Source: an uncultured Verrucomicrobiota bacterium (GTDB lineage: Bacteria > Verrucomicrobiota > Verrucomicrobiia > Opitutales > Opitutaceae). From it: DNA of 64,000 nt. This document shows positions 14,978 through 62,116 of this stretch, piece by piece. Position 1 is the first letter of the stretch. Each line of letters starts with the position of its first letter. The position numbers and the translations under genes are program-made. The notes under the pieces are model-generated. The model saw nothing but the letters and a program-made list of their open reading frames with translations. It had not been told where the DNA came from and searched no databases. The stretch is from the NCBI GenBank assembly GCA_903876795.1, contig CAIRBK010000036.1:1-64000 (forward strand), in the 5' to 3' direction.

Positions 14978-17659
<2,682 letters not shown>

Positions 17660-19337: not shown

Positions 19338-20747
19338 ATGAGAACCGAAACGGATTCGATGGGTCCGGTGTCGCTGCCCGAAGATGCGCTTTACGGAGCC
19401 TCGACGCAGCGGGCGGTGCTAAACTTTCCCATCAGCGGGCGACCCCTTCCTGACGGCTTCATTCGCGGGCTCGGCCTGGTGAAAATCGCCTGTGCACGCG
19501 CCAACGAAGAGCTCGGCCAGTTGACCCCAGGGAAAAGCCGCCTTGTTCAGCAAGCCGCGCGCGAAGTGGCCGATGGTCTTCTCGCCGCGCATTTCCCCGT
19601 CGATGTGTTTCAGACCGGCTCGGGCACTTCGACCAACATGAACGCCAACGAAGTCATCGCCAACCGTGTCAGCCAGCTCGCCGGCGAGGATGTCGGTTCG
19701 AAGCAACCGGTGCATCCCAACGATGACGTCAACCTCGGTCAGTCATCCAACGACATCATCCCGACCGCGCTCCATGTGAGCGTGGCGCTCGCGCTTGCGC
19801 GGACCCTGCGGCCGGCGCTCGTGCATCTGCATGCCGTGCTGGCGGCCAAGGCGCGAGCCTTCGAGCCGGTGATAAAGATCGGACGCACGCACTTGATGGA
19901 CGCCACGCCGGTCACGCTCGGCCAGGAGTTTTCCGGCTACGCCGCGCAGGTCGAAAAGGCCGTCGAACGCGCCGACAAGGCCGTCGCCGCTCTGCGGGAA
20001 CTCGCGGCGGGCGGCACCGCCGTGGGCACGGGCATCAATTGCCATCCCGATTTCGCCGCCAAGGTCGTGCGCAGTCTCAATGAGGAGACCGGTCTGGATT
20101 TCATCGAGGCGCGCAATCACTTCGAGGCCCAAGCGGCCCGCGACGACGCGGTCGAGGTCGCCGGACACCTCGCGACCATCGCCGCCAGTCTCACCAAAAT
20201 CGCCAACGACATCCGCCTGCTCGGCTCGGGTCCGCGCGGCGGTCTCGGCGAACTCCGTCTGCCGGCCACGCAACCCGGCTCCTCGATCATGCCGGGCAAG
20301 GTCAATCCCGTGATGAGCGAGATGCTCGTGCAGGTGTGCATCTACGCGCAGGGACTGTCGCAGATGGTCGTGCTGTGCGGACAAGGCGGGCATCTGGAAC
20401 TCAATGCCACGATCCCGCTCATCGCCCATGCGCTCCACGAGTCGATCCGCGTCCTTGCCAACGGTGCCCGCCAGTTTGCCGACGCCTGCGTGGTCGGACT
20501 GGAAGCCGACGAGGCGCGCTGCCGCGAGCTTCTCGACCGCTCGCTCATGCTGGTCACCGCGCTCAATCCTCACATCGGTTACGACGCGGCCGCCGTCGTG
20601 GCGAAGGAGGCGCTCGCCACCGGCAAGACGCTCAAGCAGGTCGTGTTGGCGAAAGGATTGATGACCTCGGCGGCGCTTGAAGCCGCGCTCGAGCCGACGT
20701 CGATGACGAAGCCCGGCCGGAGCGTGCTTGCCGCCGGCGGAGGCTGA
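19338..20747 (+). CDS. fumC: Class II fumarate hydratase (FumC)
   Basis: An iron-independent fumarase of the aspartase/fumarase superfamily that hydrates fumarate to malate in the TCA cycle. The 469 residues are standard length. Visible motifs are QTGSGTSTNMNANEVIANR, the catalytic-His loop of HPNDDVNLGQSSND, TVGRTH-like KIGRTHLMDATP, and the family signature GSSIMPGKVNPV. The second ATG (MGPVSLPED) is an alternative start. A class I iron-sulfur fumarase is encoded 1 kb downstream on the other strand. Confidence 0.95.
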   Translation: MRTETDSMGPVSLPEDALYGASTQRAVLNFPISGRPLPDGFIRGLGLVKIACARANEELGQLTPGKSRLVQQAAREVADGLLAAHFPVDVFQTGSGTSTNMNANEVIANRVSQLAGEDVGSKQPVHPNDDVNLGQSSNDIIPTALHVSVALALARTLRPALVHLHAVLAAKARAFEPVIKIGRTHLMDATPVTLGQEFSGYAAQVEKAVERADKAVAALRELAAGGTAVGTGINCHPDFAAKVVRSLNEETGLDFIEARNHFEAQAARDDAVEVAGHLATIAASLTKIANDIRLLGSGPRGGLGELRLPATQPGSSIMPGKVNPVMSEMLVQVCIYAQGLSQMVVLCGQGGHLELNATIPLIAHALHESIRVLANGARQFADACVVGLEADEARCRELLDRSLMLVTALNPHIGYDAAAVVAKEALATGKTLKQVVLAKGLMTSAALEAALEPTSMTKPGRSVLAAGGG

Positions 20748-20764: not shown

Positions 20765-21184
20765 ATGCCCGTCCACCAAGCCACGCTCACGGTCCGCACA
20801 ACCGGTCAGGGTACGCGGGAGATCACCGATTCGGTCGCGCGTGAAGTGGCGCGCAGCGGACTGAAGACCGGCGTGGTGACGGTGTTTTGTCAGCACACGA
20901 GCTGCTCGCTGGTTATCATGGAGAACGCCGATCCGACGGCGCGGCATGATCTGGAGGCGTGGCTCAACCGGCTGGTGCCGGAAAACGACCGCCACTTTGT
21001 CCACACGCTGGAAGGCCCCGACGACATGCCGGGCCACATCAAGATGGCGCTCACGCGCACGAGTGAAAGTGTGCCCTTCGCCGACGGCCGCCTGCGCCTC
21101 GGCACCTGGCAGGGCGTTTTCCTGTGGGAGCACCGCCGCTCCCCGCACACCCGCCACGTGATCGTGACGGTGATGGGCGAGTAG
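20765..21184 (+). CDS. YjbQ/UPF0047 family protein
   Basis: A 139-residue member of the secondary thiamine-phosphate synthase/YjbQ family. Conserved features are FCQHTSCSLVIMENAD, the DMPGHIKMALT strip and GTWQGVFLWEHR near the C-terminus; the conserved His residues are thought to bind metal. The biological role of the family is poorly defined (weak thiamine phosphate synthase activity is known). It lies 17 bases after fumC and is probably co-transcribed. Confidence 0.9.
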   Translation: MPVHQATLTVRTTGQGTREITDSVAREVARSGLKTGVVTVFCQHTSCSLVIMENADPTARHDLEAWLNRLVPENDRHFVHTLEGPDDMPGHIKMALTRTSESVPFADGRLRLGTWQGVFLWEHRRSPHTRHVIVTVMGE

Positions 21185-21225
21185 CCTTACGAACTGCACT
21201 CAATTACCCGGCGCAGGCCTCGGTC

Positions 21226-21248
21226 CAATGTTCGTATTACGAACATTG
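21226..21248. repeat. Long palindrome, copy 1 (23-bp perfect)
   Basis: A perfect odd palindrome centred on T21237, with the core GTTCGTATTACGAAC extended four bases each side (CAAT/ATTG). It lies just beyond the 3' end of the small HTH gene (stop at 21259). The same core recurs at 21619-21643 and 62092-62116. No T run follows, so it is unlikely to be a simple terminator. Confidence 0.85.
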
Positions 21249-21258
21249 CCGCAAGGGG

Positions 21259-21618
21259 TTATTTTTTGGACCTGTTACGCTGATGGTTTAGCCAAACGAG
21301 GAGTTGGAGAGCCCGTTCCGCGTCAGGCATGGCTGAGAGCTTGTCGAAATACTCGCCGATGCGGGCACGATGAAGCCCCAGTTCGCGTGCGAGCAGCGCC
21401 CGGTCGCCTCGGCGGCGCAGGTAGGGCTTAACCATGAGGGCGACCGCGTTCCAGAGCGGTGTTTCCGCACTGGGCCGGAGGGTTCCGCCGCGTCGGGCCC
21501 GCGGCTTGCGTGAATGCGACCGCTTGCGGGTTTCCGCTGCGAGTTCTCGCGCAGCCGTCTCAAGCACCTGTCCGATCACCAACAGGGGCTTTAGGCGTGG
21601 ATGGATGTAAGGATTCAT
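21259..21618 (-). CDS. Small helix-turn-helix protein bracketed by palindromes
   Basis: A 119-residue basic protein. Residues 30-48 are Arg/Lys-rich; residues 68-90 (RRGDRALLARELGLHRARIG) look like a helix-turn-helix with the recognition helix at LHRARIGEYFDKL; the end is LLVWLNHQRNRSKK. I do not recognise a named family. The start ATG abuts a 25-bp perfect palindrome and the stop is followed by a 23-bp palindrome with the same core, so the protein probably binds this motif and represses itself, or the whole unit is a small mobile cassette. Confidence 0.7.
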   Translation of the reverse strand: MNPYIHPRLKPLLVIGQVLETAARELAAETRKRSHSRKPRARRGGTLRPSAETPLWNAVALMVKPYLRRRGDRALLARELGLHRARIGEYFDKLSAMPDAERALQLLVWLNHQRNRSKK

Positions 21619-21643
21619 CCTTTGTTCGTATTACGAACAAAGG
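21619..21643. repeat. Long palindrome, copy 2 (25-bp perfect)
   Basis: A perfect odd palindrome centred on T21631, with core GTTCGTATTACGAAC and outer arms CCTTT/AAAGG. It lies directly against the ATG of the HTH gene, where an operator or a folded mRNA 5' end would control expression. It shares the core with copies at 21226-21248 and 62092-62116. Confidence 0.88.
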
Positions 21644-21698
21644 GATTGGGGCAAGGTCCGGGTCTACGGGGGGGCTTGGGCGTGGGGGGCCGGGGGGC

Positions 21699-23369
21699 TC
21701 AGGCCTTGGCTTTTTCGGCGGCGGCGGTCACGCCGCCGGGGAGGCAGGCGCCGCAGCCGTTGACGAAGAAATCGTTGCCCTTGTCGTCCACCAGGATGAA
21801 GGCGGGGAAATCAACGACCTCGATCTTCCACACCGCCTCCATGCCGAGTTCGGGATATTCCAACAATTCGACCTTGCTGATGTTTTCCTTGGCGAGGATG
21901 GCGGCGGGGCCGCCGATGCTGCCGAGGTAAAAGCCGCCGTGTTTTTTGCAGGCGGCGGTTACGGCGGGGCTCCGGTTGCCCTTGGCCAGCATCACCATCG
22001 AGCCGCCGAGCGACTGGAAGAGATCGACGTAGCTGTCCATGCGTCCGGCGGTCGTGGGCCCGAAACTGCCGGAGGCGTAGCCTTTCGGCGTCTTGGCGGG
22101 GCCGGCGTAGTATACGGGATGGTTTTTGAAGTAGTCGGGCAGGCCTTGGCCGGCGTCGACGCGCTCTTTGAGTTTGGCGTGGGCGATGTCGCGGGCGACG
22201 ACGAGCGGGCCGGTGAGCAACACGCGGGTGGTCACGTGGTGCCTCGAAAGCTCGGCGAGGATGGCGGGCATCGGCTGGTTGAGGTCGATGCGCACCACCC
22301 GGTCGTCCTTGATCGTGCGCTGGTCGGCGGGGATGAAGCGGCCGGGGTTGGTCTCAAGTTTTTCGAGCCAGATCCCGTCCTTGTTGATCTTGGCCTTGAT
22401 GTTGCGGTCGGCCGAACAGGAGACGCCGAGGCCGACGGGGCAGCTCGCGCCGTGGCGGGGCAGGCGGATGACGCGCACGTCGAGGGCGAAATATTTGCCG
22501 CCGAACTGGGCGCCGATGCCGCTCTGCTGGGCGATTTTCAGGACGAGTTTTTCGGTTTCGAGGCAGCGGAAGGCGCGGCCCTCGGCGTTGCCCGAGGTAG
22601 GCAGGTGGTCGTAATATTTGGTCGAGGCGAGCTTGACGGTCTTGAGGCAGGCTTCGGCGCTGGTGCCTCCGATGACGAGGGCCAGGTGGTAGGGCGGACA
22701 GGCGGAGGTGCCGAGGTAGGCGAGCTTGTCGGTGACGAATTTTTCGAGCCCCTTGGGGTTGAGAAGCGCCTTGGTCTCCTGGAAGAGAAACGTCTTGTTG
22801 GCGGAGCCGCCGCCCTTGGCGACGAAGAGGAATTTGTAGTCCGCGCCCTCGGCGGCGTAGAGGTCGATCTGGGCCGGCAGGTTGGTGCCGGTGTTGACCT
22901 CGTTGAACATGTCGAGCGCGGCGGTCTGCGAGTAGCGGAGGTTTTCCTTGGTGTAGGTCTCGTAGATGCCCTTGGAGATCCATTCGGCGTCGTTGGCACC
23001 GGTCCAGACCTGCTGGCCTTTTTTGGCGACGACGGTGGCGGTGCCGGTGTCCTGGCAGAAGGGGAGGATGCCTTCGGCGGAAATCTCGGCGTTTTTGAGG
23101 AGGGTGGTGGCGACGTAGCGGTCGTTGGCGGAGGCCTCGGGATCGTCGAGGATGGCGGCAACCTGGGCGAGGTGCTTCGGGCGCAGGAGGAACGACGTGT
23201 CACGCATGGCCTGCTGCGCGACAAAGGCGAGGACCTCGGGATCGATCTTGAGGATCTCACGGCCTTCGAATGTCGTGGTGGAGACGCCTTCTTTGGAAAG
23301 CAGGCGATATTCGGTGTCGTCGGGGCCGAGCGGGAACGGGTCTTGGTAGGAAAACGCGGGCGTAGCCAT
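21699..23369 (-). CDS. Class I fumarate hydratase (iron-sulfur)
   Basis: A [4Fe-4S] hydro-lyase of 556 residues with the alpha and beta parts fused, as in FumA/FumB. The three cluster cysteines sit in [29 protein letters not shown] and [16 protein letters not shown]. The C-terminal beta part has [20 protein letters not shown] with GRMDSY, the substrate-binding signature, and ends with [12 protein letters not shown]. The start is the ATG at 23369 ([13 protein letters not shown]); the frame upstream is non-homologous. Oxygen-sensitive, and complementary to the FumC encoded 1 kb away. Confidence 0.94.
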
Positions 23370-23511
23370 GCGACGAATTAGCCATAGCGACGGCCCGGGG
23401 GACGACGAAAAACGCCCGACTGCGTAAAAATTAGCAATAATTGCGGAGGGCACATCGTCCGCTTCTGGACCGCCCGAGGCTCCGCACGAACGGCAACGGG
23501 CGCCCCGGAGC

Positions 23512-23542
23512 AACAACTAACCCATTGTGTTAGTTGTTACGG
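23512..23542. repeat. 31-nt hairpin repeat, copy 1
   Basis: AACAACTAAC and GTTAGTTGTT form a perfect 10-bp stem around the loop CCATTGT. The whole 31-nt unit is identical to one at 42806-42836. It lies just past the kdsD stop. No T run follows on either strand. It may act as a 3'-end stabiliser or terminator, or be a dispersed extragenic palindrome. Confidence 0.85.
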
Positions 23543-62091: not shown

Positions 62092-62116
62092 CCAATGTTC
62101 GTATTACGAACTTTGG
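62092..62116. repeat. Long palindrome, copy 3 (25-bp, one mismatch)
   Basis: Core GTTCGTATTACGAAC with outer arms CCAAT/TTTGG, one base off perfect. It lies 23 bases after the arsC stop and 65 bases before acr3. The same core brackets the HTH gene at 21259-21618, about 40 kb away, so that protein could act here. Confidence 0.85.

Follow-up and report, generated by a model that had tools for sequence, protein, structure and literature searches.

Short palindromes that recur along bacterial chromosomes have been described in several settings. Noc, SlmA and MatP are DNA-binding proteins that act at tens of short palindromic chromosome sites (NBS, SBS and matS, respectively); we know of no case in which they are encoded in bracketed cassettes or occur in several orthogonal versions per genome. 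In Rickettsia, short palindromic elements are tolerated in frame within protein genes. The LexA operator of Verrucomicrobia is itself palindromic, TGTTC-N4-GAACA, with half-sites 4 bp apart.

Two further descriptions come nearer to the locus studied here. In Geobacter metallireducens, multicopy sequences occur as short repeats between and within genes, some of them mostly paired, and the available part of that report proposes them as sites of a global regulator (PMC2700814). The closest described text for a bracketed gene combined with dispersed palindromes concerns REP/RAYT systems (REPtrons, REPINs), in which, according to the accessible portion of the paper, palindromes stand on either side of a gene and recur elsewhere, frequently as doublets and in some cases inside genes (PMC3733652). 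A literature search covering few subscription journals yielded no description that we recognised of a gene bracketed by its own dispersed palindromes.

Here we analyse such a gene in the window, a stretch of 64,000 nucleotides from an uncultured member of the Opitutaceae, together with its relatives across 252 family genomes. The explanation to which we incline, with confidence slightly better than even, is that a Cro/C1-type protein autoregulates, owns a genome-wide set of sites, and has spread in a REP-like manner without a RAYT.

Results

A gene enclosed by two copies of one palindrome

A presumed DNA-binding protein of 119 aa is encoded on the minus strand at 21259-21618 (ORF list; start ATG). 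Its start codon is abutted by the presumed operator, a 25-bp palindrome with 12-bp arms and one central base, CCTTTGTTCGTATTACGAACAAAGG (21619-21643); downstream of the stop codon, after 10 intervening bp (21249-21258), lies a 23-bp palindrome, CAATGTTCGTATTACGAACATTG (21226-21248). This arrangement and the common core, GTTCGTATTACGAAC, agree by coordinates exactly with the initial annotation. The window palindromes are of the odd type, the central base being unpaired. A dispersed third copy, which had been claimed to precede acr3 with one mismatch, is indeed present at 62092-62116 between an LMWPc-family gene and an SBF-family (acr3-like) gene, its core intact and its single mismatched pair in the flank outside the core. 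The gene names yjbQ and acr3 are presumptive, assigned from our own reading of the sequence.

Allowing up to three mismatches, the 15-mer core gave seven matches in the window, where shuffles averaged 0.50 and none of 100 reached seven; the matches comprise the three perfect cores on both strands and one three-mismatch match at 16860. Apart from the palindromes described above, the window has a single perfect palindrome whose arms reach 9 bp or more (396-415), of unrelated sequence. Between the bracketing palindromes no second convincing gene was seen, overlapping frames of 58-91 aa being present, and no partner toxin gene of a toxin-antitoxin pair lies adjacent at the window cassette. Neither the ORF list nor the Pfam search revealed a transposase within the cassette. 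In addition, no sigma-70-like promoter was found in 21150-21800, an interval with two terminator-like sites (shuffle mean 0.8), and an Rfam search of the window returned nothing at the gathering score.

An optional cassette at a conserved junction

A UPF0047 gene and a class I fumarase gene flank the 514-bp intergenic region (21185-21698) that holds the cassette. UPF0047 and fumarase genes are adjacent in five genomes of the genus, and the junction between them measures 529 bp in G215, which carries an orthologous cassette, against 6 and 14 bp in G208 and G213, respectively. Junctions without the cassette, of the kind that the initial annotation had suggested looking for, thus exist, and of its proposal of a small mobile unit the optional presence of the cassette stands (514 versus 6 and 14 bp). 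Within the overall explanation that we hold to be somewhat favoured, the gene and its two palindromes would make up an optional unit of some 0.4 kb. The extra window DNA runs past the two palindromes by 41 and 55 bp, so that the true ends of the unit may or may not coincide with them; in the junction alignment, inspected for a target-site duplication, the sequences were heavily diverged. Compared by tblastx of flanks of about 1.4 kb, the 12 loci of the window class fall into three that share one context, four with some flank homology and five that are unlinked.

Two side observations concern this region. The G214 junction (L243) is 402 bp long with a different insert, a possible insertion hot spot. 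A class II (FumC-type) fumarase gene (19338-20744) and the class I fumarase gene (21702-23516) are encoded on opposite strands with about 1 kb between them.

A repressor-like protein family of Opitutaceae

An AlphaFold2 model of the 119-aa protein (pLDDT 82.8, pTM 0.58) has a long N-terminal helix (residues 10-36) and a C-terminal lambda-repressor-like HTH (54-118). VIA-align of the model gave modest Z scores of up to 7.6, with lambda cI, C.EcoT38IS and YdaS among the rows; the solved structures aligned were Cro/C1-type domains, restriction-modification controllers and YdaS, and also eukaryotic POU-type domains. The model is of the lambda-repressor-like HTH fold, and sharing that fold says nothing about function. 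Foldseek returned nothing for the protein at E 0.001, and the Pfam search gave the window protein no match of its own; YdaS_toxin was matched weakly by 22 of 32 family members (best E 1.7e-4). Matches in NCBIfam, PHROGs and PADLOC searches were weak or scattered. Against two orthologues, pN was 0.23-0.24 and pS 0.71-0.75; the window gene is under purifying selection.

Relatives are present in 130 of the 252 family genomes, with up to eight paralogues per genome. A genome scan with the family alignment, from which 80 of 98 stretches were retained, gave 79 named loci, all with Verrucomicrobiota names: mostly Opitutaceae, Opitutae, Opitutia, or Opitutus, Lacunisphaera and Rariglobus, with one labelled Akkermansiaceae. 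The window protein had no match at E 0.01 in 50,697 phage and 72,556 plasmid records, and none of 11 candidate stretches from viral contigs encoded a relative. A phage or plasmid origin was rejected on the lack of relatives in these phage, plasmid and viral collections.

Bracketing recurs across the family

Bracketing is not confined to the window gene: 48 of 88 distinct relatives lie between two copies of one palindrome, perfect in 37 and carrying a fixed mismatch in 11. The 37 perfect cases are of a TAWTA type and carry an identical arm on the two sides in every instance (37/37); control windows of 400 bp passed this test in 6 of 591 cases. Their palindromes lie 378-465 bp apart, centre to centre, in 30 of 37, and the upstream one ends no more than 12 bp from the start codon in 24 of 37. 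A perfect palindrome on one side is found in 14 members (9 upstream only, 5 downstream only), and on neither side in the other 37. Among these last, 11 carry one and the same one-mismatch palindrome upstream and downstream (4 of 510 control pairs do so), which leaves 26 of the 88 with neither a perfect palindrome on either side nor an imperfect pair; seven members without the expected motif may be wrongly delimited.

The fixed-mismatch palindromes, for example GTCACCTATTAAGTGAC, occur on both sides at L170, L172, L173, L175, L176, L193, L194, L202 and L209. Retention of the mismatch in both copies suggests that the sequence is conserved and not self-complementarity alone. The 11 members bracketed by matching imperfect palindromes speak against pure selection for a hairpin. 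Chance was dismissed on the basis of shuffled sequences, reversed patterns and local controls. As a separate observation, the arms in L053 (1456-1498) and L049 (1454-1490) are lengthened to 21 and 18 bp by copy-specific sequence beyond the core, as though adjacent DNA had been duplicated in inverse orientation.

Dispersed copies accompany the cognate protein

The assembly (3.57 Mb in 103 contigs) holds 12 perfect cores, GTTCGTANTACGAAC, and none of the reversed control, which confirms the suspicion that sites exist genome-wide beyond the cassette. Allowing up to two mismatches added one site, with one mismatch, and none with two (reversed control 1); nearly all copies in the assembly are therefore perfect. 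Across the family, the window core occurs in 38 of 252 genomes in up to 52 copies, and the related-arm pattern GTCACNTAWTANGTGAC in 103 of 252 in up to 78 copies, the reversed control being found in 1 of 252 genomes in each case.

At least four sites were present in 12 of 12 genomes with a GTTCG-bracketed member and in 8 of 240 others (Fisher p 1.2e-15), a definition that itself supplies two to three sites per positive genome. When genomes were split by protein similarity alone (E <=2e-35), the counts were 12 of 13 and 8 of 239; the exception among the 13 is G173, whose protein lies between palindromes with CGGAC arms. The protein loci are the best-scoring ones, and further members may exist. 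Palindromes common in genomes that lack the protein, which the initial annotation had named as evidence against its reading, are mostly not what this split reveals, with G001 and G038 as exceptions. G001, a complete genome, has 15 perfect GTTCG sites (G001:C1, L112-L118) and no close cognate protein, the gene having perhaps been lost or another binder being present; G038 (73% complete) has 33 sites and no close protein; and G005, G008, G011, G036, G132 and G135, some of them incomplete assemblies, have 4-10. Close protein and sites mostly co-occur, with real exceptions, and upkeep of the sites by the cognate protein is suggested. In G139, a variant, GTTCGTATTGCGAAC, stands both beside the cassette (L067) and inside an M16-like gene (L342), as if copies within one genome share variants.

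Arms covary with the recognition helix

Among relatives the centre TAWTA is nearly constant and the arms vary, with classes that include CGAAC, CGGAC, CGTGAC, AGTTGAC, AAGTGAC, AGGTGAC, AGATGAC, CGTTAC and others. Arm and recognition helix covary among 36 members less than 75% identical, to which a set of 50 had been reduced: the 14 best column pairs all lie at the shuffle floor of 1/2001, in shuffles that carry no kinship correction. For example, the helix HRARIGE pairs with the CGAAC arm and HxSR(I/V)TE with CGGAC. The relation is not one-to-one, as PRQRVH-type helices are found with CGTGA, GGTGA and AGTGA arms. The natural reading of this covariation is that each protein would bind its own palindrome. 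As part of the explanation we narrowly prefer, paralogues would have changed specificity repeatedly, and several networks could coexist in one genome.

Paired sites are helically phased

Many sites come in pairs, and spacings of up to 90 bp cluster near 45, 53, 64 and 75 bp (at least 32 spacings, among the matches listed). Phasing at 10.5 bp is evident in these at least 32 spacings, with R 0.60, Rayleigh p 1e-5 and best-period simulation p 4e-4; the list covers pairs outside cassettes and omits one G133 pair at 54 bp (L111), and intragenic pairs are restricted to multiples of 3, which favours 54 bp. Such spacing fits two dimers lying on the same face of the DNA, and bridging of paired sites by the protein may follow. 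The letters flanking the sites vary from one sister genome to the other, being AAT in 93 of 102 half-sites of G133 and AAA in 14 of 20 half-sites of ten G149 sites.

Phased pairs would let bound dimers bridge or loop DNA, and the protein could then be a chromosome organiser resembling Noc, SlmA or MatP. This alternative, which we regard as unlikely, draws on the phasing, the near-perfect cores, the intragenic sites and their recurrence in more than one species at matching positions of a gene (see below), and has against it the patchy presence of the system, the coexistence of several paralogous networks and the lack of clear regional bias on the two G133 contigs (KS p 0.058 and 0.91 for 20 and 8 merged units, among the sites listed).

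Sites inside genes and the regulon question

By our own rough gene calls, 63 site units in seven genomes divide into 21 inside genes, 15 between convergent, 20 between tandem and 6 between divergent genes, with 1 unassigned. Coding-like sequence lies on both sides of 21 of the 120 sites examined, and 20 of these 21 read as VR(I/N)TN.

Comparison with relatives indicates how such sites are accommodated. The rsmB gene has a single site in G133 and G149 at unchanged length relative to 14 site-less relatives; in G139 a doublet adds exactly 54 bp, and in G134, which has no close protein, a degenerate site lies at the same place, with another in one other gene. An mpl-like gene bears a site at the same position in G142, G149 and G002, its length unchanged versus 8 relatives. 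That site is perfect in G142, which has no close protein, and only degenerate, GTCCGGATTACGCAC, in G133, although the latter carries the protein together with 52 sites; the loss of sites in genomes without a close protein is thus no general rule, nor does the protein's presence guarantee a perfect site. The PutA-like enzyme of G038 can be aligned with solved PutA across its site with no gap. In biotin carboxylase, doublets occupy 99 bp in the window genome (G000) and 111 bp in G215 versus 24 bp in three relatives, and G209 has a single site with 42 bp. The two doublets have similar palindromes and diverged spacers; as far as these alignments go, sites appear to tend to persist while the surrounding sequence drifts. 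The names rsmB and mpl are below NCBIfam cut-offs, and rsmB and SNF2 are above Pfam cut-offs; the name uvrA-like is our assumption from reading the sequence, searches having given weak ATPase matches below cut-off, and HsdS-like (no Pfam match) and MutY-like are likewise presumed from our own reading.

Origin of the intragenic sites in place, from near matches, was considered and set aside, as the scores give no general rule. Out of 15 letters, six of the 14 site-less rsmB relatives scored 4-6, usual for their loci; mpl-like genes scored 4-9, the 9 belonging to G134 and being perhaps a decayed site; and M16-like, aminotransferase and uvrA-like genes scored 7, 4-7 and 6-7, respectively. The degenerate sites of G134 genes (L213, L357, L320) and of G133 (L393) all start GTCCGGA.

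These positions bear on the possibility that the protein is simply a transcription factor that regulates its own gene and a large regulon, its intragenic sites being roadblocks or by-products. The XRE-like fold, the palindrome at the gene's own start codon, the near-perfect cores and the site ahead of the acr3-like gene all suit it. A classical regulon has its sites mainly in promoters, however, and here 21 of 63 units are intragenic and 6 of 63 lie between divergent genes; rsmB, the mpl-like ligase, the carboxylase and the SNF2 protein have no evident common theme, and presence is patchy (38/252 genomes) with up to eight paralogues per genome. The initial annotation had entertained an autoregulated factor with a genome-wide regulon; the genome-wide sites hold (12 in the assembly), their distribution is unlike a plain promoter regulon, and we consider an ordinary regulator quite improbable.

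Y1 transposase loci rarely have the palindromes nearby

Y1_Tnp genes are found in 183 of 252 genomes. Near the 30 best Y1 loci, which are IS200-like and mostly in site-poor genomes, TAWTA palindromes (arm of at least 7) were found in no case (0/30), and near longer RAYT-like Y1 loci, mostly in site-bearing genomes, in 1 of 20, with an arm of no known class. Near member loci they occur in 68 of 108 cases, and near background loci in 6 of 41. G015 (97% complete) has 10 sites of the GTCACNTAWTANGTGAC pattern and no Y1 match. Within 13 bp of 91 sites, a GTAG tag was seen in 0 of 182 flanks (about 6.7 expected) and a CGTC tag in 9 of 182 (about 8.8 expected), which is no excess. A RAYT mechanism is not supported.

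That a Y1 (RAYT/IS200) transposase, or one of another kind, mobilises a REP/MITE family in trans, with the HTH gene a passenger or control protein, is very unlikely: the doublets are REPIN-like, Y1_Tnp genes are widespread and carboxylase-linker doublets stand where relatives have none, but palindromes keep company with member genes and hardly at all with Y1 loci (68/108 versus 0/30 and 1/20), G015 has its sites without a Y1 match, and specificity tracks the HTH.

Discussion

How could a simple DNA-binding protein come to own a dispersed set of palindromes? In the autoregulating Cro/C1-type explanation that we prefer, the protein would bind its own palindrome as a dimer, with the recognition helix reading the arms and TAWTA forming the centre, and the copy next to the start codon would make the gene autoregulated. 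Palindromes outside the cassette, whether single or paired, would be further binding sites, intact mostly where the cognate protein is present; we take them as such from their near-perfect cores, the covariation, the association with the protein and the phasing. The whole would work like a REP/REPtron, as a gene unit with dispersed palindromes and a repressor-like protein in the place of the RAYT. The sequences themselves show the bracketing, the dispersal, the covariation, the empty junction and the helical phasing; binding and autoregulation by the protein are what we infer from these patterns. The diverged spacers between similar carboxylase palindromes and the degenerate sites of G134 also speak for the explanation. 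Weighing against it are the helix types that occur with several arms, the sites of genomes without a close protein, the mpl-like sites of G142 and G133, which lowered our confidence slightly, and the 26 unbracketed members.

A bolder proposal, which we offer tentatively and think doubtful, is a class of transposase-free, self-addressed repeats: a repressor-like protein of about 120 aa would seed and maintain its own sites across the genome with nothing more than host replication and repair, enter or replace coding DNA in frame, and switch helix and palindrome together.

If the preferred explanation is true, a simple DNA-binding protein can be enough to found and keep palindromes dispersed through bacterial genomes, with no transposase needed. 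The family would constitute many natural protein/palindrome pairs with changed specificity, offering tests of how HTH specificity evolves, and the pairs could be useful as orthogonal DNA-binding parts. Furthermore, the intragenic repeats provide a testable case of parasites versus binding sites kept by selection.

Comparison with known systems places the locus between several of them. Its half-sites are spaced 7 bp apart, unlike those of the Verrucomicrobia LexA operator. It resembles Cro/C1-type (XRE) autorepressors, restriction-modification controller C proteins and YdaS in fold and in the operator-like palindrome at its own gene start, and differs from them in the second palindrome after the stop codon, in dozens of dispersed copies, including intragenic ones, and in the absence of a visible partner gene from the cassette. 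Tens of short palindromic sites per chromosome are shared with Noc, SlmA and MatP, and bracketed cassettes and several orthogonal versions per genome set it apart. In-frame palindromes within protein genes recall the Rickettsia elements, except that each class here has its own bracketed, presumably DNA-binding gene. Unlike the repeats of G. metallireducens, a member of another phylum, the gene here is bracketed by its own element, and the available part of that report describes none (PMC2700814). The closest likeness is to a REPtron, as the window-type gene is flanked by palindromes that are dispersed elsewhere, often as doublets and some of them intragenic; unlike a REPtron, it encodes a 119-aa protein without a Y1/HUH domain, modelled as an all-helical HTH, and, unlike REP/RAYT systems, its paralogues have arm sequences of their own.
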